Positions 32,652 through 45,179 of a DNA stretch of 64,000 nucleotides are shown here, one piece after another. The notes below the pieces were generated by a model, which saw only the letters and a program-made list of their open reading frames with translations, ran no database searches and was not told the origin of the DNA. The position numbers and the translations under genes were made by a program. The stretch's first letter is position 1. Each line of letters begins with the position of its first letter. Source of the DNA: an uncultured Pelagibacteraceae bacterium (GTDB taxonomy: Bacteria; Pseudomonadota; Alphaproteobacteria; Pelagibacterales; Pelagibacteraceae); NCBI GenBank assembly GCA_902584685.1, contig CACIAP010000001.1, positions 47,501-111,500 on the forward strand. The letters run 5' to 3'.

Positions 32652-33318
32652 AAAAAAAATATTTATTGCGGTAGATACCAATAAAATCTCTAGAGCAAAA
32701 AGAATAATAAAAGACACGCAAACAAATAAAATTAAAGTGGGCTACAAATTTGGTCTTGAATTTTTTTACTCAAAAAATGGAAGAAAATTTCTTTCAAGTT
32801 TAAAAAATCAAACAATTTTCTTGGATTTAAAACTTAACGATATACCAAACACAGTAGTATCAGCTGTAAAATCTTTGAAAAATTTAAAGATTTCTTATTT
32901 GACTGTCCATCTAAGCTCGGGATTGAGTGCCTTAAAAGCTTTAAAAAAAGTGAGTAGAAAAATAAAGATAGTTGGAGTAACTACTTTGACCTCATTAAAT
33001 AATAAAGATTTAAAAGAGGTTGGATATAATAAAAAGGTAAATGAACTGGTTAGGCATCAAGCTAAACTTGCCTCAAAAGCAAAATTAGATGCAATCGTCT
33101 GTAGTGGACATGAAATAAGATCGGTAAAAAGGGTGTTTAAAAAAGAAATAATTACACCTGGTATTAAAATGCACAATACAAAAAATGATCAAAAAAGGGT
33201 TATGAGACCTACTGATGCTTTTGCTGAAGGGAGCAATTGGTTGGTAATCGGTAGATCAATAACAAATGGTAATATTAAAAAAAATATTAAGAATTTATTG
33301 GAAATTTTAGAGGACTGA
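32644..33318 (+). CDS. pyrF: Orotidine 5'-phosphate decarboxylase
   Basis: IFIAVDTN, FLDLKLNDIPNTV, ITPGIKM, WLVIGRSIT. Confidence 0.94.
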   Translation: MNKKKIFIAVDTNKISRAKRIIKDTQTNKIKVGYKFGLEFFYSKNGRKFLSSLKNQTIFLDLKLNDIPNTVVSAVKSLKNLKISYLTVHLSSGLSALKALKKVSRKIKIVGVTTLTSLNNKDLKEVGYNKKVNELVRHQAKLASKAKLDAIVCSGHEIRSVKRVFKKEIITPGIKMHNTKNDQKRVMRPTDAFAEGSNWLVIGRSITNGNIKKNIKNLLEILED

Positions 33319-33962
33319 TGCAATCTAAGATTTGTGGAGTCAAGGATAGTGAAACATTAAATTTTTTAATAAACTATAAATATCCTCCTGAATTAATTGG
33401 CTTTATTTGTAATTATCCAAAATCAAAAAGATTTATTGATATAAATTCCCTTAAGAAACTTCTCAAAGTTGAAAATAAAAAATCTCAATTTGTATCTGTA
33501 CTAGTAAAACCTGGTGAGTTTATTTTAAACGAAATGCAAAAACTTAATTTTGATTATTTTCAAATTTATGACTGTACACCTAATGAAATAATATCAATCA
33601 AAAAGAAATATAACAAAAAGATAATTTCTGCAATTACAGTCGAGACCAAAGAAGATATTCTCAAATATAAGAAATACGAGGATTGTTCTGATATAATATT
33701 ATTTGATAGTAAGGGGTATGAAAAATCGTTAGAATTTGACCACACTTTAATGGAAAACGTGCCAGTCAATGTTAATAGAATGATAGCTGGAAATATTAAA
33801 TACAACGATAATCTTGATAAGTTTATGAAAATTTGTAATTATATTGATATATCTGGGGGCGTAGAGACATCTGGATTAAAAGATATTTCTAAAGTAAAAA
33901 TTTTCTTAGACTCTGTTAAAAAATTAAATGATAAAATTAAAGAAAAAAACTCCTCTTATTGA
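33318..33962 (+). CDS. trpF: Phosphoribosylanthranilate isomerase
   Basis: KICGVKDSETL, FQIYDC, AGNIKYNDN, DISGGVETSGLKD; followed by trpB. Confidence 0.92.
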   Translation: MQSKICGVKDSETLNFLINYKYPPELIGFICNYPKSKRFIDINSLKKLLKVENKKSQFVSVLVKPGEFILNEMQKLNFDYFQIYDCTPNEIISIKKKYNKKIISAITVETKEDILKYKKYEDCSDIILFDSKGYEKSLEFDHTLMENVPVNVNRMIAGNIKYNDNLDKFMKICNYIDISGGVETSGLKDISKVKIFLDSVKKLNDKIKEKNSSY

Positions 33963-35142
33963 CCAGCATGATAAGTTTGGATTTTATGGAAATAAATTTG
34001 GTGGAAACTATTGTGCAGAAACAATGCGAAAACCAATTGAGGATTTATCTAAGCTTTTTGAAAAATTAAGAAAAGATAGGAAATTTCTTAAAAAAAGAGA
34101 TAATTATTTTAAACATTATCTTGGAGGCGAAACACCTTTTTTTAAGTTAGAAAATTTAACTAAACATTTAGGTGGAGCTCAAATTTGGTGCAAAGACGTA
34201 TCAGCTATAAACGGAGATGCGCACAAGGCATATCACGCAACTGTCAATGCACTGATTTGCAAAGAAAGTGGTAAACGTTATATAGCGGGCGATACCGGCG
34301 CAGGAATGTTCGGAAAAAATCTTGCGATGGCAGCAAAAAAAATGAATTTAAAGTGCAAAATTTTTATGGGTACAAAAGATATTTCTAGACAAGCACCTAA
34401 TGTAAAATTCATGCGTGATGCGGGTGCTGAAGTTGTGCCAGTTGATTCAGGTTCAAAGACTTTAGTAGATGCTGTTTCTGAGTGTATGCGCCATTATGTT
34501 TCAAACTGTGATAATACACATCTAGCAGTGGGCTCAGCAATTGGATGCAATATTTTTTTAAAAATTTGTGCATGGTCAACTTCCCAAATTTCAAGAGAAT
34601 TAAAAAAACAACTAATAAAAGAGTTTGGTGAAATACCTAAACTTAAATTAATCAATGTCATAGGTGGGGGAAGTAGCGCTTTAGGATTTTGGAATGAGTT
34701 TATTGAATACGATAAAAAACATGTTGAACTAATCGGTGTTGAGGCAAAGTATGCTGCACCTTTATCTACAAACGCAAGAGTAGCTATTTTACATGGAGCT
34801 GCACAATATTGTTTGACTGATAAAGAAGGTCAAATAGCAGAAACCCATTCATTGAGTGCTGGTTTAGATTATCCAGGTTCGAGTCCCTTACATGGATTGT
34901 TAAAAGACTCTGGAAGAGCGCGATACACTAATGCGTCAGATAAAGAAGCATTGGCTGCTTTCAAGTTAATTACCAAATTAGAAGATATAAGACCAAGTTT
35001 GGAACCAGCACATGCATGGAGTGAATGCATTCGTTTGGCTCCAAAATTAAAAAAAAGTGATGTGATTGTAGTCAACAATTGTGGAAAAGGCTACAAAGAT
35101 AAAAAAATTTATATTGAGCAATTAGGATATTATCCCAAATGA
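33928..35142 (+). CDS. trpB: Tryptophan synthase beta chain
   Basis: FGFYGNKFGGNYCAETM, GDAHKA (PLP Lys region), GGGSSALGFW. Confidence 0.96.
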   Translation: MIKLKKKTPLIDQHDKFGFYGNKFGGNYCAETMRKPIEDLSKLFEKLRKDRKFLKKRDNYFKHYLGGETPFFKLENLTKHLGGAQIWCKDVSAINGDAHKAYHATVNALICKESGKRYIAGDTGAGMFGKNLAMAAKKMNLKCKIFMGTKDISRQAPNVKFMRDAGAEVVPVDSGSKTLVDAVSECMRHYVSNCDNTHLAVGSAIGCNIFLKICAWSTSQISRELKKQLIKEFGEIPKLKLINVIGGGSSALGFWNEFIEYDKKHVELIGVEAKYAAPLSTNARVAILHGAAQYCLTDKEGQIAETHSLSAGLDYPGSSPLHGLLKDSGRARYTNASDKEALAAFKLITKLEDIRPSLEPAHAWSECIRLAPKLKKSDVIVVNNCGKGYKDKKIYIEQLGYYPK

Positions 35143-35939
35143 AAAATTCTATTAACAATGCCTTCAAGGCTGCAAAAAAAGAAAATAGACCTGCATTAAT
35201 ATCTTATACAGTTTGTGGTGATAATACTAAGGATAAATCTCTGCAAATACTTAATTCAATATCAAAGGATTTGGATATTGCAGAATGGGGAATACCACAT
35301 AATTGCCCAACTGCCGATGGTAAAGATATTCAAAATAGTTCTTACAGAGCCTTACAAAATGGGATTCGATTAAATGATATTTTTAAACTTGTAAAAAGAT
35401 TTAAGAAAACAAAACCATCTAAACCAATTATATTAATGGGTTACTACCAGATGATATTTAATTATGGAGAGAAAAAATTTATAAGAAAATGCAAAGTATC
35501 TGGCGTTGATGGGTTGATCGTTGTTGATTTATCATTTCCTGATAATAAAAATTTTGCCAAATTATGTATGAAAAATTCTATTTGCTTTGTTCAATTAATT
35601 GCGCCAACTACAACCGTTAAAAGAATGAAAGAGATAATTAGGAGTTCGCACGAAATGATTTATATGATTTCAACTATATCTACTACGGGATCTGCATTAA
35701 AATATAGTATAAAAAGAATTATTAAAAATTATAATTTTATAAAAAAAATCAAACCTTCAAAAAATGTTGTTATAGGTTTTGGTATTACTGAAAAAACTAT
35801 TTCAAATCTGAAATCTGCAGACGGCTTAGTTGTTGGAAGTGCAATTTGTCGAGAAATAACAAGAAGTTTAAGAGATAGACAAAATCCCGTCACAAATGTA
35901 AGTAAATTAGTAAGAAAACTAAAAAACAAAATTATATGA
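35139..35939 (+). CDS. trpA: Tryptophan synthase alpha chain
   Basis: RPALISYTVCGDNT, PTADGKDIQNSSYRALQNG, VDGLIVVDL. Confidence 0.95.
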   Translation: MKNSINNAFKAAKKENRPALISYTVCGDNTKDKSLQILNSISKDLDIAEWGIPHNCPTADGKDIQNSSYRALQNGIRLNDIFKLVKRFKKTKPSKPIILMGYYQMIFNYGEKKFIRKCKVSGVDGLIVVDLSFPDNKNFAKLCMKNSICFVQLIAPTTTVKRMKEIIRSSHEMIYMISTISTTGSALKYSIKRIIKNYNFIKKIKPSKNVVIGFGITEKTISNLKSADGLVVGSAICREITRSLRDRQNPVTNVSKLVRKLKNKII

Positions 35940-36865
35940 ATTGGCTAAAAAAAACTCTTAGATTTGGTGAGAAGATAAAACAATTTTTAAAAAAAAGACC
36001 ATCAAAAAGTGATATAGACAATAGCGATTGGACTTCTTGTTGCAAAGGTCCAGTTTTGAAAAAAGATTTAGAGGAAAATTTATGGGTCTGTAATGCATGT
36101 GGAAGACATCATCGTATAAATTGTATTCAAAGATTTGATATAATTTTTGGAAAAAATAATTATGAAGTATTAAAAACACCAATACCTGCCGATGATCCTT
36201 TAGAATTTGAAGATTCATCTCCATATAAAAAGAAATTAAACTCTGCGAGAAAAAAAACAAATCAAGATTGTGCAGTCATGATTGCTAAAGGTAAAATTGG
36301 GAACATAGATGCTATAGTTGGTGCAATTAACTTTGCTTTCATGGGTGGTTCAATTGCAACAAGTGAAGGTGAAGCAATTATTTTTGGTATTCAAAAAGCT
36401 GTTGAGGAAAAAAAACCTTTTGTAATTTTTACTTGTGGTGGTGGTCAAAGAATGCATGAAAGTCCACTAGCCCTTGCACAAATGACGAGGACAACTATGG
36501 CCATTAATGATTTAAAAGAAAATAAATTACCTTACATAGTGTGTCTCACAGATCCAACTGCTGGAGGGATCACTGCTTCTTTTGCGATGCTTGGAGACAT
36601 TCAAATATCTGAGCCTGGAGCCTTAATTGCATTTGCAGGAAGAAGAGTTATAGAGGGAACAGTAAAGGAAGAACTACCTGAGAACTTTCAAAAAGCTGAG
36701 CATGTTCTTGATTGTGGATTTGTAGATAACATTATACCTCGTAAAGATTTATCCCAAAAAATTAGTCAGGTATTATCTATGTTGCTTAAGAAAAATTCTG
36801 AAGTAAATTCAGAGAATAATGAACAAACTCCAGAATTTAATATCGGAACTAGAGAAGCATCATAA
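35936..36865 (+). CDS. accD: Acetyl-CoA carboxylase carboxyltransferase subunit beta
   Basis: WTSCCKGPVLKKDLEENLWVCNACGRHHR, FMGGSIATSEGEAI, LTDPTAGGITASFAMLGD, FAGRRVIEGTVKEELPE. Confidence 0.95.
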   Translation: MNWLKKTLRFGEKIKQFLKKRPSKSDIDNSDWTSCCKGPVLKKDLEENLWVCNACGRHHRINCIQRFDIIFGKNNYEVLKTPIPADDPLEFEDSSPYKKKLNSARKKTNQDCAVMIAKGKIGNIDAIVGAINFAFMGGSIATSEGEAIIFGIQKAVEEKKPFVIFTCGGGQRMHESPLALAQMTRTTMAINDLKENKLPYIVCLTDPTAGGITASFAMLGDIQISEPGALIAFAGRRVIEGTVKEELPENFQKAEHVLDCGFVDNIIPRKDLSQKISQVLSMLLKKNSEVNSENNEQTPEFNIGTREAS

Positions 36866-38087
36866 AAAGAAATTAGACCTATCCCTGGGTCGAACTTTCA
36901 ATCTTTTAAAAAAACTTGGAAACCCTCAAGACAAACTTAATAATATAATTACGATAGTAGGTACGAATGCTAAGGCAAGTATGTCATATAGTCTAAAGGC
37001 AATCCTTAATCAAGCTGGATTAAAGTGTAATATGTACACCTCTCCACATCTTCAATCCTATACTGAACGTTTTGTATTTAATGATACTGAAATTGATGAA
37101 GAAAATCTTTTTAAATTGTTAGAGGATACAGAAAAAGTCTTAGGAGATGATAATGCGACTGTTTTTGAAATACTTACATGTGCTTTTTTAAAATATGCGG
37201 AAAGCTTCAAAGGTAATATTAACATAATTGAAGCTGGGTTATTTCACCAATACGATAGTACCAATGTTTTTAAAAAAAATTTAATGACATTAATTGGTGT
37301 AATACATAACGATCATTTTCAATGGCTAGAAAATAAAAGTATTGATGGAGTTATACATGAAAAAACTTGTAAGCTTTTAAACTCTAATATTTTTGTAAAC
37401 AAACAGGTGAATGATGAGATAGGTAAAAAAGTGGAAGAATCTTTAAATCAAAATACATCAAATAAATATTTTTTTGGAAAAAACTTCAATATCTCAAGAT
37501 CAGATAATAGCTTCATTCAATACCAAGATGATATTGGTGAATTAATATTACCAGAACCCAATATTCTAGGAGACCATCAACTTTATAATATTAGCACTTC
37601 AATTGCAGCGTCTAGAAAAATATTTAACGTTAAAGATCAAGATATAAAATCAGGTATTCAAAATATCTCCCTTAAAGGAAGATTACAGGAAATAAAGTCA
37701 GGAAAACTCAAAAAAATTGCAGGTAATAATAGATTGGTAGTTGATGGTGGTCATAATATTTCAAGCAGTTATGTCATTGCAAACTGGATTAAAAACCAAA
37801 ATCAAAAAGTTAATCTCGTTGTAGCTATGATGAAAGATAAGGAACATCAAAAATTTATGAAATCTTTTGAGGGTCTAGTTAATTCAGTTACTTTAATTGA
37901 TATTCCTAATCAGGATGGAGGGATTTCTAAAAATGAATTTAAAGAAAAGATAAGTAATCTCAATTTTAACTTAAAAATTTCAGATAGTATCGACAGTGCA
38001 ATTCATTTAAACTCAAAGGATATAAACACTATTACCTTAGTGTGTGGATCGCTTTATTTAATTGGGGAAGTTCTAAATTTAAATTAA
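36819..38087 (+). CDS. folC: Folylpolyglutamate synthase/dihydrofolate synthase
   Basis: NIITIVGTNAKASMSYSLKAIL, YTSPHLQSYTERF, LGDHQLYNISTSIAA, VDGGHNISS. Confidence 0.93.
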   Translation: MNKLQNLISELEKHHKKKLDLSLGRTFNLLKKLGNPQDKLNNIITIVGTNAKASMSYSLKAILNQAGLKCNMYTSPHLQSYTERFVFNDTEIDEENLFKLLEDTEKVLGDDNATVFEILTCAFLKYAESFKGNINIIEAGLFHQYDSTNVFKKNLMTLIGVIHNDHFQWLENKSIDGVIHEKTCKLLNSNIFVNKQVNDEIGKKVEESLNQNTSNKYFFGKNFNISRSDNSFIQYQDDIGELILPEPNILGDHQLYNISTSIAASRKIFNVKDQDIKSGIQNISLKGRLQEIKSGKLKKIAGNNRLVVDGGHNISSSYVIANWIKNQNQKVNLVVAMMKDKEHQKFMKSFEGLVNSVTLIDIPNQDGGISKNEFKEKISNLNFNLKISDSIDSAIHLNSKDINTITLVCGSLYLIGEVLNLN

Positions 38088-38401
38088 GTATTTTCTTTAA
38101 TCCAAGAAACAATATTAGATTTAGTGGTAGCTCCAACTTTTGTTGCTTTCAATTCTCCACCAGAAAATAAGAGCATAGTAGGAATACCTCTGATTCCGTA
38201 TTTTGTTGGAGTGTTGGGTTCATTATCAATATTGTGTTTAGCAATTACAACATCAGACATCTCGTTAGAAATTTCTTCTAGGATTGGTCCAATTTGTTTA
38301 CAAGGTCCACACCACTCTGCCCAGAAGTCAACTATAACTGGTTTGCCAGCCTTGATAACTTCTGCTTCAAAGTTTTCGTCTGTTACGTTTACGGTAGCCA
38401 T
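38084..38401 (-). CDS. trxA: Thioredoxin
   Basis: VDFWAEWCGPCKQIGPILEEI, YGIRGIPTMLLF. Confidence 0.98.
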   Translation of the reverse strand: MATVNVTDENFEAEVIKAGKPVIVDFWAEWCGPCKQIGPILEEISNEMSDVVIAKHNIDNEPNTPTKYGIRGIPTMLLFSGGELKATKVGATTKSNIVSWIKENT

Positions 38402-38467
38402 AGTATTTATATATAAAGATTAGATTAATATTCAAGCTCAAAATGATTAAAATCTATTTTATCCACA

Positions 38468-39949
38468 TTAAACATTTTGATATTTCTTCTCAATAGACAT
38501 TACAAAATTATTTAGTTGGTCCAAAAATTTGAGATTTTTTTCATCATTTTCATTAGAAAATTTTTCTCTTAAATTGTCGCACTCGAAATAAAATTCTTTG
38601 CATGTCCACCACTTCTCTTTTTTATTGCTAAGAATTCTCTTAGCTATATCTCGCTTTACCTGTTTTAAAATAGATTCGGGCAGAACATGGGGAGCTTCTT
38701 GAAATATTATTTTTTTGCCAAATCCAACAAGTCTTTCATCCTCAAACTTATCTAGCAATCTTAGTTTGTCTGACCAAGATGCCTCGTGCCATTTTGAGAA
38801 TAAATTTGTATCTTTGTTTGGAGTGAACTTTTTATATATACTCTCTTCTGGAAGTATATCTTCTTGAGATTTTGATTGTTCTTTTTCTTCAGCAATTTCT
38901 CTTAAAGCAGTTAATATATTTTCTGAAAATTTTTCGTTACTGTTTACTAATTCAGCTCTTTTTATCAGTATATTTTTATCTATTGCATTATAGGGTTCAA
39001 CATCCATACCAAATTTTTTATCCAAAATTATAGGTGCTTTATTTGATCTGATAGTTCTTAAAAATTTGGGTGATTTTTTCATCTCAGCTTTCAAATCATT
39101 GATCGACATTTTAAGAAGAGGCTCTACATCAATCCTTAGATCGACTGCTTGGCCCCACTGATATATAGGATGGGTACAAAATTTTGGGTGGAGAGGAGCA
39201 CAAAGGTAAAGTCTTGATTTTCCATAAAAATACTCATTTAAAGTAATAATCTTTTCTTTTTTAATAATTGTTTCTGTGTCTAACTTATTTGCAGTCTTTA
39301 AAAAATTGTTCCATGTTTCTGGCTGTTTTTTCTTAATTAAGCCTAGTACTTTAAGTGTGAGCTCAGCATCAAAAATTGCACTATGTGCTCCGCCAGATTC
39401 AAAACCATTCATTCTTGCTAAAGATTCTAATTTCATTACTGCATTACCCTTTTCGTTAATTTCGGTGTTTAATATTTTATTATCAATAGCAAAAGCACCT
39501 CTTGCTATATTTAGTCCATCATGTCTTTTGTTTGGTGAGGCATTAGTAATGTAGGGGTATCTAATACCCTTAAAAAACTCTTTTCTAATCATTTCATCAT
39601 CAAAACCTATGTTTGACCATCCCATGAATATTGCGGGACTCCACTTTTTAAAAATTGCTTCAACTTGATTTAACATCTGATAATGGCTTAGGTTTGTTTT
39701 TGTTAGCAAATCTACGTTTGTTTTATTAACGAGCAGCGCCATACACTGAGGTATTTCACCTTCTGGTAGTCTACATCTTAGATTAAATCTATCTTTTTCT
39801 TTAAAGTTTTCATCAACCAATATTCCTCCAATCTCAATTATGCTACCAAAATCAGTAGATGAACTTGATGACTCAATATCCCAAATAACAATATTCAATT
39901 TTTTTCCTTTTATCTTAATGCTTTTTGTGAAGAGGATATGATCTCGCAT
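38468..39949 (-). CDS. Exonuclease I family protein (DEDDh exonuclease plus ExoI C-terminal region)
   Basis: IWDIESSSSSTDFGSIIEIGGILVDENF, GWSNIGFDDEMIRKEFF, NKRHDGLNIARG, GGAHSAIFDAELTLKV; SbcB-like overall architecture. Confidence 0.88.
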   Translation of the reverse strand: MRDHILFTKSIKIKGKKLNIVIWDIESSSSSTDFGSIIEIGGILVDENFKEKDRFNLRCRLPEGEIPQCMALLVNKTNVDLLTKTNLSHYQMLNQVEAIFKKWSPAIFMGWSNIGFDDEMIRKEFFKGIRYPYITNASPNKRHDGLNIARGAFAIDNKILNTEINEKGNAVMKLESLARMNGFESGGAHSAIFDAELTLKVLGLIKKKQPETWNNFLKTANKLDTETIIKKEKIITLNEYFYGKSRLYLCAPLHPKFCTHPIYQWGQAVDLRIDVEPLLKMSINDLKAEMKKSPKFLRTIRSNKAPIILDKKFGMDVEPYNAIDKNILIKRAELVNSNEKFSENILTALREIAEEKEQSKSQEDILPEESIYKKFTPNKDTNLFSKWHEASWSDKLRLLDKFEDERLVGFGKKIIFQEAPHVLPESILKQVKRDIAKRILSNKKEKWWTCKEFYFECDNLREKFSNENDEKNLKFLDQLNNFVMSIEKKYQNV

Positions 39950-40003
39950 CTAAACAAGTAGCAAGTAAATTTGTTAATATATTAATTTAATAATTTGTCA
40001 ATT

Positions 40004-40687
40004 TCATTTGACAAAAAGGTTGTAAAATTTTTCAACTCTCTCAAGAAATTTATTTTGATAATCTAAAAGTTCATTGCCTTCAATTTTAAAATCTTGAAAT
40101 AGACTGTCTACTGTACACATCAAAACAACTCCCTGTGTGATATTGGAGTTATAAACTGTGTTATGCGCTAATGAATAGGCCCCTATTTGTAAAAAATAGT
40201 CTTCAATATACTCTTTCTTTTTCGGTTTATTACTTTGTTTAAAATCTAAAATTGTCTCTCTACCTTCATAAACACCTATGCAGTCAGCTGTGCCAGCATA
40301 TTTGTTAGGATAATATAGTGTTGCTTCAGCACCCCAAACTTCTGTTAGTTTATTTTTTAGACCATTATCTATAATTTCTTCCGCCATTTTTTTTGAGTGA
40401 TTGTTATCATCAATTAAATCTTGGTTAAGCTTTCCATGTAGAAACTCTTCAATAAACTTGTGAATTGAGCTACCTCTACTTGATGCTTCTTTTTTGATTC
40501 TATCTGCCTCAAGCTTTCCGACTCTTTCCTTCCATGCAGCTAATGCAGCTTTATCCTCTTCACTTTTTGTTGCTGAAAGTATGGTTGTAACAGAAGGTAA
40601 GTTTGATCCATCTAAAGAGTAGTGCCTTTTTCCTTGAATTAATGCTCGAGTAGAACTTGGATAATTAAATTTTTTATTCCATTCCAT
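40004..40687 (-). CDS. PD-(D/E)XK nuclease, MGME1-like
   Basis: GTADCIGVYEGRETILDFKQSNKPKKKEYIEDYFLQIGAYSLAHN (D...DxK...Q motifs); N-terminal LPSVTTILSATK and SSRGSSIHKFIE. Confidence 0.82.
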   Translation of the reverse strand: MEWNKKFNYPSSTRALIQGKRHYSLDGSNLPSVTTILSATKSEEDKAALAAWKERVGKLEADRIKKEASSRGSSIHKFIEEFLHGKLNQDLIDDNNHSKKMAEEIIDNGLKNKLTEVWGAEATLYYPNKYAGTADCIGVYEGRETILDFKQSNKPKKKEYIEDYFLQIGAYSLAHNTVYNSNITQGVVLMCTVDSLFQDFKIEGNELLDYQNKFLERVEKFYNLFVK

Positions 40688-40723
40688 TTGAGCTGTTATA
40701 TTTGTTTTTTAATTTGAAATGAA

Positions 40724-41779
40724 TTAGTTTTTAGCTTGTTTGGGTTGTTTACTTAACTTTTCTACATTCTCTGTATTGATAGCTCTTTCAATCTGCTCTG
40801 GATCTTTTATATTTTCTAGTGTCCGCGTAATAGATCTGGCATCTTTTCCAAAACTGTCAACGACTGTCATAGCCTCCTCTAATTTTTTTCTTAATTTATA
40901 AATATTATCGAAATGAGTTGAAAATCTAGTACTGATTGTTTTTAAATGATCATAGATTTCTGTTGCGTGCTTTTGAACTTTCAAAGTTTGAAATCCCATA
41001 TGAAGAGATTGCAAATAAGCCGAGAGAGTATTTGGTCCTAAAATTACAACTTTATACTTTTTCATTATTTCTTGCGTCAACAGCTCTTTATTAACAGGGT
41101 CTTGATAAGAGCTTAATTCTGAAAATAAACTTTCTGTTGGAGCATAAACAATTGCGAAGTCTGTAGTTTTAGGAGGGTTTATATATTTATCATTAACTGA
41201 TTTTGCTTTGTCCCTAAAAGCTTTTGCTAAATTTTTTCTTGCATCAGCAGCGGCCTTTTTATCCTCATCTTTAAATGCATCCTCTATAGCTTTAAATTTA
41301 TCTACAGGAAAATGACTATCTACTGGTACAAGCACATCCTCTTTAAGTTTGATAGCAAACTCAACATTTTCACTCGTATCTTCTTTCATTTTAACATTAG
41401 ATAAATATTGTGAAGCTGGTAACAAATCCTCTAATAAAGATCCTAAACTGAATTCAGCTAATGTTCCAAATTTTTTCACCCCTGCAAGTATCTTATTAAT
41501 GCCTCTCTGGCTTTCATTTAAATCTTTTACCTGCATATTAAATGCTTCAACTTTTTGATTTACTGATGTTAGTGTCTGAGTCATATCTCTTGTGACATCT
41601 TTAGATAAACTGTTAAAAGATGCACTCATTGTATTAAATGAACTATTAATACTGTCCCTTAAATTATTAATTTCTTGAGAATTATCTTTTGGTTCCGATT
41701 TATTTCTCCTCTGAGTAATTAATAGGTAAATTATTATTACCATTAAAACTAAAATTAAATATAATATCGAATCTTGCAT
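40724..41779 (-). CDS. rmuC: DNA recombination protein RmuC
   Basis: N-terminal TM, coiled coil, DSHFPVDKFKAIEDA, TTDFAIVYAPTESLFSEL, VVILGPNTLSAYLQSLHMGFQTLKVQKHA. Confidence 0.93.
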   Translation of the reverse strand: MQDSILYLILVLMVIIIYLLITQRRNKSEPKDNSQEINNLRDSINSSFNTMSASFNSLSKDVTRDMTQTLTSVNQKVEAFNMQVKDLNESQRGINKILAGVKKFGTLAEFSLGSLLEDLLPASQYLSNVKMKEDTSENVEFAIKLKEDVLVPVDSHFPVDKFKAIEDAFKDEDKKAAADARKNLAKAFRDKAKSVNDKYINPPKTTDFAIVYAPTESLFSELSSYQDPVNKELLTQEIMKKYKVVILGPNTLSAYLQSLHMGFQTLKVQKHATEIYDHLKTISTRFSTHFDNIYKLRKKLEEAMTVVDSFGKDARSITRTLENIKDPEQIERAINTENVEKLSKQPKQAKN

Positions 41780-41870
41780 GCTATCAATTATGAATATTCC
41801 TATTTTATCAAACTATACAAGTAAAAAGATTAAAAAAACAAATGAAATTGTAATATAATTAACTAAAATA

Positions 41871-42002
41871 ATGGAATTTCAATTAACCTTTAAAATAATA
41901 ATTATAGTAGGAGTTTTAATAGCTGTTTATGCAACTTTAAGAAATTTAGATGTAATTAAAATTATTCTTATCTATCTTAAGGACTTGTTACTAAGAAAAT
42001 AG
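41871..42002 (+). CDS. Small hydrophobic single-TM protein (43 aa)
   Basis: ATG...TAG ORF MEFQLTFKIIIIVGVLIAVYATLRNLDVIKIILIYLKDLLLRK; not in the ORF track because of length. Confidence 0.4.
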   Translation: MEFQLTFKIIIIVGVLIAVYATLRNLDVIKIILIYLKDLLLRK

Positions 42003-42674
42003 CTTAATAATATTTTTTAAACCTATTTTTGAAAAACTTTTTTTTGATGAAAAAACACACGCCTGAGATTTCAAAATTTCACCGTCTTTAAGTACACGTA
42101 AATTGTTACTTTTAATCGTTTTCCCAGTAGAGGTGATATCAGAAATCAAATTTGCTGAACCAGTAAAAGGGTAAACTTCCGTAGCGCCCAAACTTTCAAC
42201 AATTTGAAATTGAGTTACACCTTTTGAAAATAAGAAGTCTCTTGTCAGATTGGGATATTTAGTTGCAACTCTAAGTCTTTTCTTTTTTTTATCTCTAAAT
42301 TCAAACGCAATTTCTTCTAAGTCTGCAACTGTTTGAACATCAATCCACGGATCGGGAATAGCAACAACCAGATTTGCTTTTCCGAAATCATATTTTTTAA
42401 CAAGGTTTATTTTTTTTTGCGTATTAAATTCACTTTCTTTAAATAAGTCAAAACCAGAAAAACCCATATCTAGAGAACCATCCCCTAGTCTTTCTATAAT
42501 CTCTCTAGCATGTAAATATAATATTTTTAAATTTTTTTTATTTTTAATTGATCCAATGAGATCCCTTTCCCCTCTTTCTGAAATAAGTTTTAGTTTTTTT
42601 CTTTTAAAAATCTTTAAAACGTCTTTCCTTAATCTTCCTTTGCTTGGTATACCTATGTTAAATGTATTTTTCAT
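41991..42674 (-). CDS. hisG: ATP phosphoribosyltransferase (short form)
   Basis: NIGIPSKGRLRKDVL, DGSLDMGFSGFDLF, VATKYPNLTRDFLF, SLGATEVYPFTGSANLISDITSTG. Confidence 0.94.
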   Translation of the reverse strand: MKNTFNIGIPSKGRLRKDVLKIFKRKKLKLISERGERDLIGSIKNKKNLKILYLHAREIIERLGDGSLDMGFSGFDLFKESEFNTQKKINLVKKYDFGKANLVVAIPDPWIDVQTVADLEEIAFEFRDKKKKRLRVATKYPNLTRDFLFSKGVTQFQIVESLGATEVYPFTGSANLISDITSTGKTIKSNNLRVLKDGEILKSQACVFSSKKSFSKIGLKNIIKLFS

Positions 42675-42677
42675 AAT

Positions 42678-43727
42678 TTACTTTAAGTTTATTGCTGCCC
42701 CAACAGCCGGCACTTTTTTTTTCGATCCTAAATTAGAAATTAATTGATCATATCTTCCACCATTAAATATATTTTTAATTCTATTTTTTGATTTAATGTC
42801 AATTTTAAACACCATGCCTGTGTAGTATTCGAGTTGTCTTCCAAAGGCAGTTGAAAAAATTACATTAAGCTTTGAAACTTTTTTATTTGATAATGGAAAA
42901 TATTTTTGATCGACTGCTAGATTAATTTTATTTTTTTTAAAAAATTTATTTAATTCCTGTGCTGCTTTGTTGATTGGACATTTGATCTTTAAAAACCCTC
43001 TAATAATTTTAGAAACATTTCTACCCTTGCTTGGGCGTCTTGGGTCTTTAATCTTTTTTTCAAACCTCTTTAAAATTTCATCAATGGATCTACCAGCAAT
43101 TATTGATGACTTATTTTCTTTGGTCATTTTTAGATAACGTTTTTTATCAACCTCTACAATTGTTGGATCAACATCTGAGTTTGTCTCTAATCTTTTCAGC
43201 AAGTCGTTGAAATAGCTTTCTCTCCAAAAATGTCTTGAAAGTCTCAACTTCCATCTCTTAGGGATATCCAATTTTGAGATTAAAAGATTAAATATTTCCA
43301 CATTTCCTATTGTCAATGTGCCTGTATAATACTTTAAGTTTTTTATTGATTTAATAGAAGTATCAATTATTTCTTTATCATCTTTTTTCTCATCTTTTGA
43401 ACCAATAATTTCAAATCCAATTTGGTCTCTAATAATTGAGTCTTTTTTATTATTTGATTTTCTATATGCTTGACCGCTATAAAATATTTTTTCTTTAGTT
43501 TTAAGATTATTTTCAAGGTACCTGAGGCAAGAAACTATTGTTAAATCAGGTCTTAAACATAACTCGCTTCCATTTTGATCGATAAATGAAAAGATAAACT
43601 TTCTAAAATTTTCGCCTGATCTTTGAACTATGTGATTAGCTTCAATTACGGATGGTAATTCAATGTATTTAAATCCTTTAGATTTTACAGATCTAAGAAT
43701 TTTTTCAGATAAATTTTTTGATTTCAT
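42678..43727 (-). CDS. hisZ: ATP phosphoribosyltransferase regulatory subunit HisZ
   Basis: Class II aaRS-like fold, CLRPDLTIVSCLRY, FGRQLEYYTGMVFKI, FNGGRYDQLIS; paired with short HisG. Confidence 0.92.
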   Translation of the reverse strand: MKSKNLSEKILRSVKSKGFKYIELPSVIEANHIVQRSGENFRKFIFSFIDQNGSELCLRPDLTIVSCLRYLENNLKTKEKIFYSGQAYRKSNNKKDSIIRDQIGFEIIGSKDEKKDDKEIIDTSIKSIKNLKYYTGTLTIGNVEIFNLLISKLDIPKRWKLRLSRHFWRESYFNDLLKRLETNSDVDPTIVEVDKKRYLKMTKENKSSIIAGRSIDEILKRFEKKIKDPRRPSKGRNVSKIIRGFLKIKCPINKAAQELNKFFKKNKINLAVDQKYFPLSNKKVSKLNVIFSTAFGRQLEYYTGMVFKIDIKSKNRIKNIFNGGRYDQLISNLGSKKKVPAVGAAINLK

Positions 43728-45099
43728 TGATTAAATTTTCTTTTGAAAATGTAACTTGATTATTTTCTCCTTTAATCCCAAGAAGATTTTTCAAGGTAAT
43801 TTTGTTATCTTTAAATTCATTTTCTCCACAAATTATTGCGACCGGACACGCTCTTTTATTGGCATAATTTAATTGTTTCCCGAGATTTTTTTTACTGTCT
43901 AAAAAGATTTCTGAATTAATATTATTTTTTCTCAAAGTTTCTAAAATTTCGTAATAATTTTTTAAATATTTTTCATCCATCACACAAATAATAACCGGTT
44001 TTTGTTCATTGATTTCTGGGTTTAATTGCATCATCGCAAATAACAATCTATCAACACCAATACTTACACCTGTGCCGGGTATATCCACTCCTTTAAATCT
44101 AGATATTAACTTATTGTATTGTCCTCCAGAGCAAATGCTTCCAATATCTACTTCTTTGCCTTTATTATTTTTTGCTTTAAAATTAAGATTAGTTTCAACA
44201 CAGAAACCATCATAATATGCAAGACCTCTAACAATTGTAAAGTTAGTTTTTACTTGATCAGAATAATTCCCAAACTTTAAAATTTCTAGAAGATCTTCTA
44301 ATTCATTTATTCCTTCTTGTGTTAAAGGATTTTTAAAATTTTGTTTAAGTTTATTCAAATCATTAATCTTTAAAAAATCTAAAATCTTAGATACTTGATC
44401 ATCATTTAGATTAGCACCTTTTGTAATTGCACCACTTTTATCTTTTCTCTCTTTTTTTAATAAATCCTCAACACCTCTTAACCCAAAACCAGGTTTATCA
44501 AGCTTATCTATAGCTCTCATAACCTTGGTCTGTTTAGTGTCTGGAATCTTTAGATCTTTGATTAGACCTTGAATTATTTTTCTATTGCTGACGTTAATGA
44601 TAAATTGATCTTTTTTTAAACCACACTCCAATAATGTGCTTGCAATTAAATTACATAATTCTGCATTCGCTTGAGCTGGGTTAACATTTCCCACAATATC
44701 ACAATCTGCTTGCGTAAATTCCCTGTATCGCGCATTTCCAGCTTTCTCATTTCTAAAAACATTTTGGATTGCATATCTTTTATATATTGATGGAAGTTCT
44801 TGATTGTTTAGAGCAACAAATCTCGCTAATGGACTTGATAAATCATAACGAAGGGTAATATCTTTAGTTCCGTCTTTAAAAGAAAATACATCAGACATAG
44901 GATTACTTTCATCCTCTGCGAGAAAGGATCCAATATTTTCTGCAATTTCAAAAGATGGAGTTTCCAAAGGGTCAAACCCGTATTTTATAAAATTATTCTC
45001 TATAACTTTTAAAAGTTTCTTTTTAAGAAGTAATTTTTTATTCCACCTATCTTCAAATCCCTGGGGTAACCCAGGAGTTAATTTATTTTCTTTACTCAT
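43705..45099 (-). CDS. hisS: Histidine--tRNA ligase (true start MSKENK; longer track ORF runs into tRNA-His)
   Basis: PGLPQGFEDRW, ETPSFEIAE, LRYDLSSPLARFVA, GLAYYDGFCVE, CSGGQYNKLI. Confidence 0.96.
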   Translation of the reverse strand: MSKENKLTPGLPQGFEDRWNKKLLLKKKLLKVIENNFIKYGFDPLETPSFEIAENIGSFLAEDESNPMSDVFSFKDGTKDITLRYDLSSPLARFVALNNQELPSIYKRYAIQNVFRNEKAGNARYREFTQADCDIVGNVNPAQANAELCNLIASTLLECGLKKDQFIINVSNRKIIQGLIKDLKIPDTKQTKVMRAIDKLDKPGFGLRGVEDLLKKERKDKSGAITKGANLNDDQVSKILDFLKINDLNKLKQNFKNPLTQEGINELEDLLEILKFGNYSDQVKTNFTIVRGLAYYDGFCVETNLNFKAKNNKGKEVDIGSICSGGQYNKLISRFKGVDIPGTGVSIGVDRLLFAMMQLNPEINEQKPVIICVMDEKYLKNYYEILETLRKNNINSEIFLDSKKNLGKQLNYANKRACPVAIICGENEFKDNKITLKNLLGIKGENNQVTFSKENLINEIKKFI

Positions 45100-45104
45100 T
45101 TTTT

Positions 45105-45179
45105 TGGTACCCTGGCTTGGGATCGAACCAAAAACTGAAGTTCCACAAACTTCCGTGATAACCATTTCACCACCAGGGC
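45105..45179 (-). tRNA. tRNA-His (anticodon GTG)
   Basis: Minus strand GCCCTGGTGGTGAAATGGTTATCACGGAAGTTTGTGGAACTTCAGTTTTTGGTTCGATCCCAAGCCAGGGTACCA; anticodon loop TTGTGGA. Confidence 0.95.

Follow-up and report, generated by a model that had tools for sequence, protein, structure and literature searches.

What occupies the place of addB and addA in Pelagibacter, and which function does it supply? In other alphaproteobacteria the gene order addB-addA-trxA faces folC-accD-trp. The window, a 64,000-nucleotide stretch of a contig from an uncultured Pelagibacteraceae bacterium, carries three intact ORFs co-directional with trxA (Table 1): rmuC, a gene for a PD-(D/E)XK nuclease and a gene for a DEDDh ExoI homologue. 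They are read from the minus strand in the order rmuC, nuclease, exoI, trxA, with intergenic gaps of 36, 54 and 66 bases, and may be expressed as an operon whose downstream partner is trxA. Both folC and accD are convergent to this block; folC is the neighbour that marks the addBA slot and accD serves as a synteny anchor. A sequence-only reading had picked out the three as same-strand DNA-processing genes near trxA, folC and accD, and the intact ORFs and the family searches bear this out.

Table 1. Features of the window, and a recurrent small protein of related loci
Feature	Coordinates	Strand	Basis
RmuC-family protein, 351 aa	40724..41779	-	PF02646 E 2e-50, 172 bits vs cut-off 26
PD-(D/E)XK exonuclease, stand-alone, MGME1 type / phrog_298, 227 aa	40004..40687	-	family searches, MGME1 alignment, structure model
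ExoI (SbcB)-like 3'-5' ssDNA exonuclease, 493 aa	38468..39949	-	PF08411, PF00929
thioredoxin, trxA	38084..38401	-	PF00085 E 7e-32; synteny
folC	36819..38087	+	position, synteny; PF02875 Mur_ligase_C slightly below its cut-off
accD	35936..36865	+	synteny and sequence reading; blastp 39-41% matches in other alphaproteobacteria
124-144 aa protein, copies in related loci	L201:5311-5685, L205:9250-9636, L211:8839-9243, L212:5910-6284, L214:6033-6449, L216:4933-5328, L218:9564-9998		

The RmuC assignment follows from a PF02646 match over its cut-off. The ExoI homologue has both a DEDDh exonuclease domain (RNase_T, over its cut-off; residues D24, E26, D117, H189 and D194) and an ExoI C-terminal domain (PF08411, E 6e-14, also over its cut-off), and it matches E. 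coli ExoI in the PDB at E 1e-14. It scores below the cut-off of the NCBIfam equivalog NF008746 (E 5e-38, 131 bits vs 260); judged by its sequence, it is a divergent relative of ExoI.

The co-directional block rmuC-nuclease-exoI-trxA is conserved, and its gene order recurs throughout the genus of the window. The usual position of the nuclease gene is between rmuC and exoI. In variant loci it lies after hisG, before rmuC or facing exoI, and always adjoins exoI or is at most one gene away. Because the gene order recurs across the genus and the nuclease is under purifying selection (dN/dS 0.03-0.09 between relatives), the locus is not a product of chance.

Relatives of the 227-residue nuclease

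The nuclease matches PF12705 weakly, yet over the cut-off (E 2e-5), and the phage family phrog_298 ('exonuclease') at E 2.3e-51 over residues 9-222. In the PDB, plain phmmer found human MGME1 at E 1.7e-11; with a profile built from 26 homologues MGME1 was found at E 2.5e-23, and the next matches, at 0.0036 or weaker, were unrelated proteins. MGME1 is thus the sole convincing PDB relative by sequence, and it is also the best structural match. When an AlphaFold model of the nuclease (pLDDT 92.8, pTM 0.89) was compared with the PDB by Foldseek, MGME1 chains took the first nine places (E down to 2e-12, TM 0.74/0.84), followed by other nucleases of the superfamily from E 1.8e-5, with AddA at 1.5e-3. 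Lambda exonuclease was rejected as an assignment on its scores (Foldseek E 7e-3). The resemblance to MGME1 and to phage exonucleases proposed from the sequence alone is therefore upheld by the phrog_298, phmmer, profile and Foldseek searches together.

The predicted catalytic residues H76, D135, D148 and K150 are invariant in the 26 homologues; further residues of the RecB family are E121, Q167 and Y171, and there is an SVT motif at 32-34. Counted in the profile alignment, the four correspond to H180, D238, D251 and K253 of human MGME1, of which H180 and K253 have an established catalytic role (PMC11551736). The protein is an MGME1-type stand-alone PD-(D/E)XK nuclease of the phage family phrog_298. 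It shares with MGME1 the fold over 203 aligned columns, the H/D/D/K site and the stand-alone state without a helicase. It differs from it in sequence (23% identity) and context, the gene being chromosomal, beside rmuC and exoI and non-mitochondrial, and its activity is a predicted one. MGME1 is specific for ssDNA and degrades it in the 5'-3' direction at 6.3 nt/s, against 2.0 nt/s in the 3'-5' direction (PMC11551736). By analogy, the Pelagibacter nuclease should be an ssDNA exonuclease with a 5' preference.

Cas4 has a RecB-like nuclease fold and weak similarity to the protein, but this assignment was rejected: TIGR00372 gives 13.9 bits against a cut-off of 65, the similarity stays below all curated cut-offs, and there is no invariant cysteine among its conserved columns. 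No CRISPR or cas genes were found in the neighbourhood of the nuclease that was examined.

Within the order, the gene is a property of one genus, that which includes Ca. Pelagibacter ubique. A first sample of about 159 genomes of the genus had it in 148, and it is present in 108 of the 117 scored for RecJ and ExoVII; named carriers are Pelagibacteraceae such as Ca. Pelagibacter ubique SCGC AAA795-F16. Most of the sporadic absences match draft incompleteness. One genome of three contigs that is 99% complete (G024) is without the nuclease and keeps RecJ. The other genera of the order yielded no nuclease except for one partial match of 42 residues. This piece lies with an exoI 52% identical to that of the window in a genome of another family (L174 / G087:C25:1846-3423), probably on a stray Pelagibacter contig. 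No full-length homologue was found among 287 other alphaproteobacterial genomes; the four weak matches there lie in ORFs of 962-1186 aa, and three of these genomes have an AddA match at the same place. A full-length homologue was also missing from 399 sampled genomes of the phylum, those listed all being of the same class.

Relatives are instead found in phages. They are encoded in 984 INPHARED phage records and in 38 IMG/VR loci, the latter nearly all at 42-48% identity, and the best named phage relative is 45.6% identical over 98%. The exonucleases of T4-like cyanophages, Ackermannviridae, 121Q-like and marine phages belong to the same sequence family. In Ackermannviridae and PhiW-14-like phages the gene stands beside UvsY and a UvsW-type helicase, and on two marine contigs a relative lies directly 3' of a helicase gene; going by these neighbours, the phage relatives sit in a recombination setting. 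The Pelagibacter gene differs in being a core chromosomal gene at a fixed locus, with a clade of its own, while the phage gene is part of a recombination module. In the tree all 25 Pelagibacter nucleases form one clade (support 98/99) amid phage lineages; one row (ph_AG345F15), with a branch length of 4.19 and apparently the wrong ORF chosen, was ignored. Human MGME1 has a long branch in this tree. The distribution of the family suggests that the transfer ran from phage to host.

The addBA slot

AddA scores over the cut-off in 99 of 142 other alphaproteobacterial genomes, and many more have long ORFs below it. In 16 alphaproteobacterial loci that were inspected, with addA located by profile and addB inferred from size, the full order addB-addA-trxA facing folC-accD/trp was seen in three, and trxA directly follows addA in several more. 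None of 247 Pelagibacterales genomes has a match over the AddA cut-off, and the sub-threshold matches listed lie in ORFs of at most 755 aa, fitting UvrD. The genome of the window itself gave no match to AddA/RecB in an assembly that is only 70% complete. The absence of UvrD and PF12705 from that genome was set aside as evidence of loss, because of this incompleteness and because the PF12705 search of the genome missed the nuclease itself. According to the literature, SAR11 is without RecBCD and MutSL, and RecF is missing in P. ubique and subclade Ic (PMC12374537). Two parts of the sequence-only reading, that the cluster occupies the slot of addBA and that addBA is absent, therefore hold.

The pair rmuC-exoI is in the addBA slot in every Pelagibacterales genus examined at that locus. 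In the sister genera and in a second family exoI, usually with rmuC, adjoins trxA in the slot without the nuclease, so that exoI and rmuC had either refilled the slot or stayed behind in it before the nuclease arrived. Likewise, because rmuC-exoI is order-wide and the nuclease is limited to a single genus, the loss of AddAB was an earlier and independent event. This bears on the proposal that ExoI, the nuclease and RmuC together form a streamlined module replacing AddAB in DNA-end resection. Its position exactly in the slot, the order-wide absence of AddA/RecB and the reported lack of RecBCD and partly of RecF in SAR11 (PMC12374537) fit such a module, and these elements of the proposal stand. 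A replacement in a single event is rejected, since AddAB was already gone from the whole order when the nuclease arrived in a single genus, and the sister genera manage with rmuC-exoI alone. The block has no helicase, whereas AddAB and RecBCD require helicase motors on duplex ends, and its location may be a positional coincidence after deletion. The nuclease does share its domain superfamily with these enzymes, but at 227 aa against about 1100 it is the nuclease domain only, and no UvrD-type helicase domain is fused to it or paired with it. On this evidence a takeover of resection from AddAB seems improbable.

Variant loci

In some genomes the nuclease/exoI locus is a defence hot spot. At L216:7699-14350 (G122) DrmA and DrmB of DISARM and an AspBHI-like methyl-directed restriction enzyme adjoin the nuclease and exoI, and homologues of MzaB/MzaC and of PbeA lie near them at L219:8889-13310 (G159) and L214:10979-13099 (G026). 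Strongly diverged ExoI proteins, 27-28% identical to that of the window, are encoded at L212:4270-5412, L213:4803-5945 and L219:4611-6095. Each is directly preceded by a protein of 380-494 aa, and the copy in L212 has a Peptidase_S24 (LexA/CI-like) domain; possibly these are damage-controlled exonucleases. A protein of 124-144 aa recurs near exoI (Table 1), most copies ending in TIH, and its L218 copy has no Pfam match. The region 33318-45165 of the window, compared with loci L086-L165 and L197-L232, shows strong allele mosaicism: trxA at the same position is either 28-40% or 47-100% identical to that of the window, and similar jumps in identity occur in hisG, hisZ, folC and rmuC.

Could the locus then be a defence or phage-conflict cassette, its phage-type nuclease, ExoI and RmuC being directed against invading DNA or against the recombination of phages? 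The DISARM, MzaBC or PbeA genes beside the nuclease or exoI in variant loci, the match of ExoI to the PADLOC model RTasSbcB (E 4e-69) and the highly mosaic alleles all point that way. The locus of the window, however, is without any defence gene, and the nuclease, present in nearly all genomes of the genus, in a fixed gene order and under strong purifying selection, looks like a housekeeping gene. Mosaicism, moreover, is general in SAR11 (PMC12374537). We regard a defence function as an unlikely account of the locus.

RecJ, ExoVII and the role of the nuclease

RecJ is a DHH-type protein and ExoVII consists of XseA and XseB. ExoVII (XseA) was found in none of the 117 genomes of the genus; the nearest sister genera lack it as well, and more distant genera have it. 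RecJ is kept in 23 of the 117, versus 26 of 27 genomes in sister genera of the family (Fisher P 4e-14, a value that is only descriptive because related genomes were treated as independent). On the polA tree XseA changes once, before the gain of the nuclease, and RecJ changes at least six times within the genus, or up to 12 times if only losses are allowed. In three complete genomes, each a single contig (G003, G015 and G020), the nuclease is present and both RecJ and ExoVII are missing. These losses are not mere shrinkage, since the sister genus g5 keeps RecJ with smaller genomes (about 1.0 Mb). The xseA gene of one sister genome, itself a single contig, appears broken into two pieces with stops (G158:C1:581900-583059), which is either a loss of ExoVII underway or a sequencing error.

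Within the genus, nuclease and RecJ do not strictly exclude each other. Both are present in 21 genomes, that of the window and 20 others, and in seven the nuclease, RecJ and ExoVII all appear to be missing, so that, unless these are assembly gaps, the nuclease is not strictly required. Since it was gained only once, the RecJ losses are a weak test of correlation. Other 5' processing exists, because all ten genera of the order keep a Pol I that includes the 5'-3' exonuclease domain (184 of 197 genomes); loss of this domain was accordingly rejected as an explanation for the gain of the nuclease. Its kinship to MGME1, which is described as processing flaps together with POLG (title of Uhler et al. 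2016, cited in PMC11551736), could suggest that the nuclease removes flaps in replication as in mitochondria, but this is the least probable of the roles considered, as the retained Pol I domain already covers that function across the order.

The reading that we favour, with modest confidence, is that a captured phage-type nuclease most likely does the work of RecJ and ExoVII as a 5' ssDNA exonuclease. Because the genus is distinguished by the loss of ExoVII and, mostly, of RecJ, such a replacement fits better than that of a helicase-nuclease like AddAB. The rmuC-nuclease-exoI cluster has no helicase partner. The nuclease and RecJ/ExoVII are unrelated proteins; they would share the role of trimming 5' ssDNA beside ExoI, and the nuclease is present where the other two have been lost. 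According to this proposal, the ancestor of one SAR11 genus would have acquired a phrog_298-type exonuclease in a single capture, and the gene would have entered an rmuC-exoI-trxA block that already stood in the place of addBA. By analogy with MGME1, it would trim ssDNA from free ends, preferring 5' ends, with a two-metal H/D/D/K site, and would work beside the 3'-directed ExoI. ExoVII was already gone when the nuclease was gained, and RecJ was then lost repeatedly within the genus. A bolder version can be put forward only tentatively: the MGME1-type enzyme may be the only dedicated 5' ssDNA exonuclease in most Pelagibacter, having displaced ExoVII and RecJ, and would then be the bacterial counterpart of the nuclease that maintains mitochondrial DNA; mitochondrial MGME1 may have its origin in the same family of phage enzymes.

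One of the most abundant groups of bacteria in the ocean, SAR11 recombines promiscuously without RecBCD, MutSL and, in part, RecF (PMC12374537). In the literature covered by an incomplete search, we found no description of the nuclease gene in SAR11 or of the RecJ and ExoVII losses. The protein family is already known from phages and mitochondria; what would be new is that it serves a bacterial genus as a core gene, in combination with the loss of RecJ and ExoVII. If the captured phage nuclease supplies 5' end processing, a missing component of the SAR11 recombination machinery would be named, and a phage enzyme would have become a core housekeeping gene while two textbook nucleases were lost. 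It would also provide a simple bacterial enzyme for studying the chemistry and origin of MGME1.
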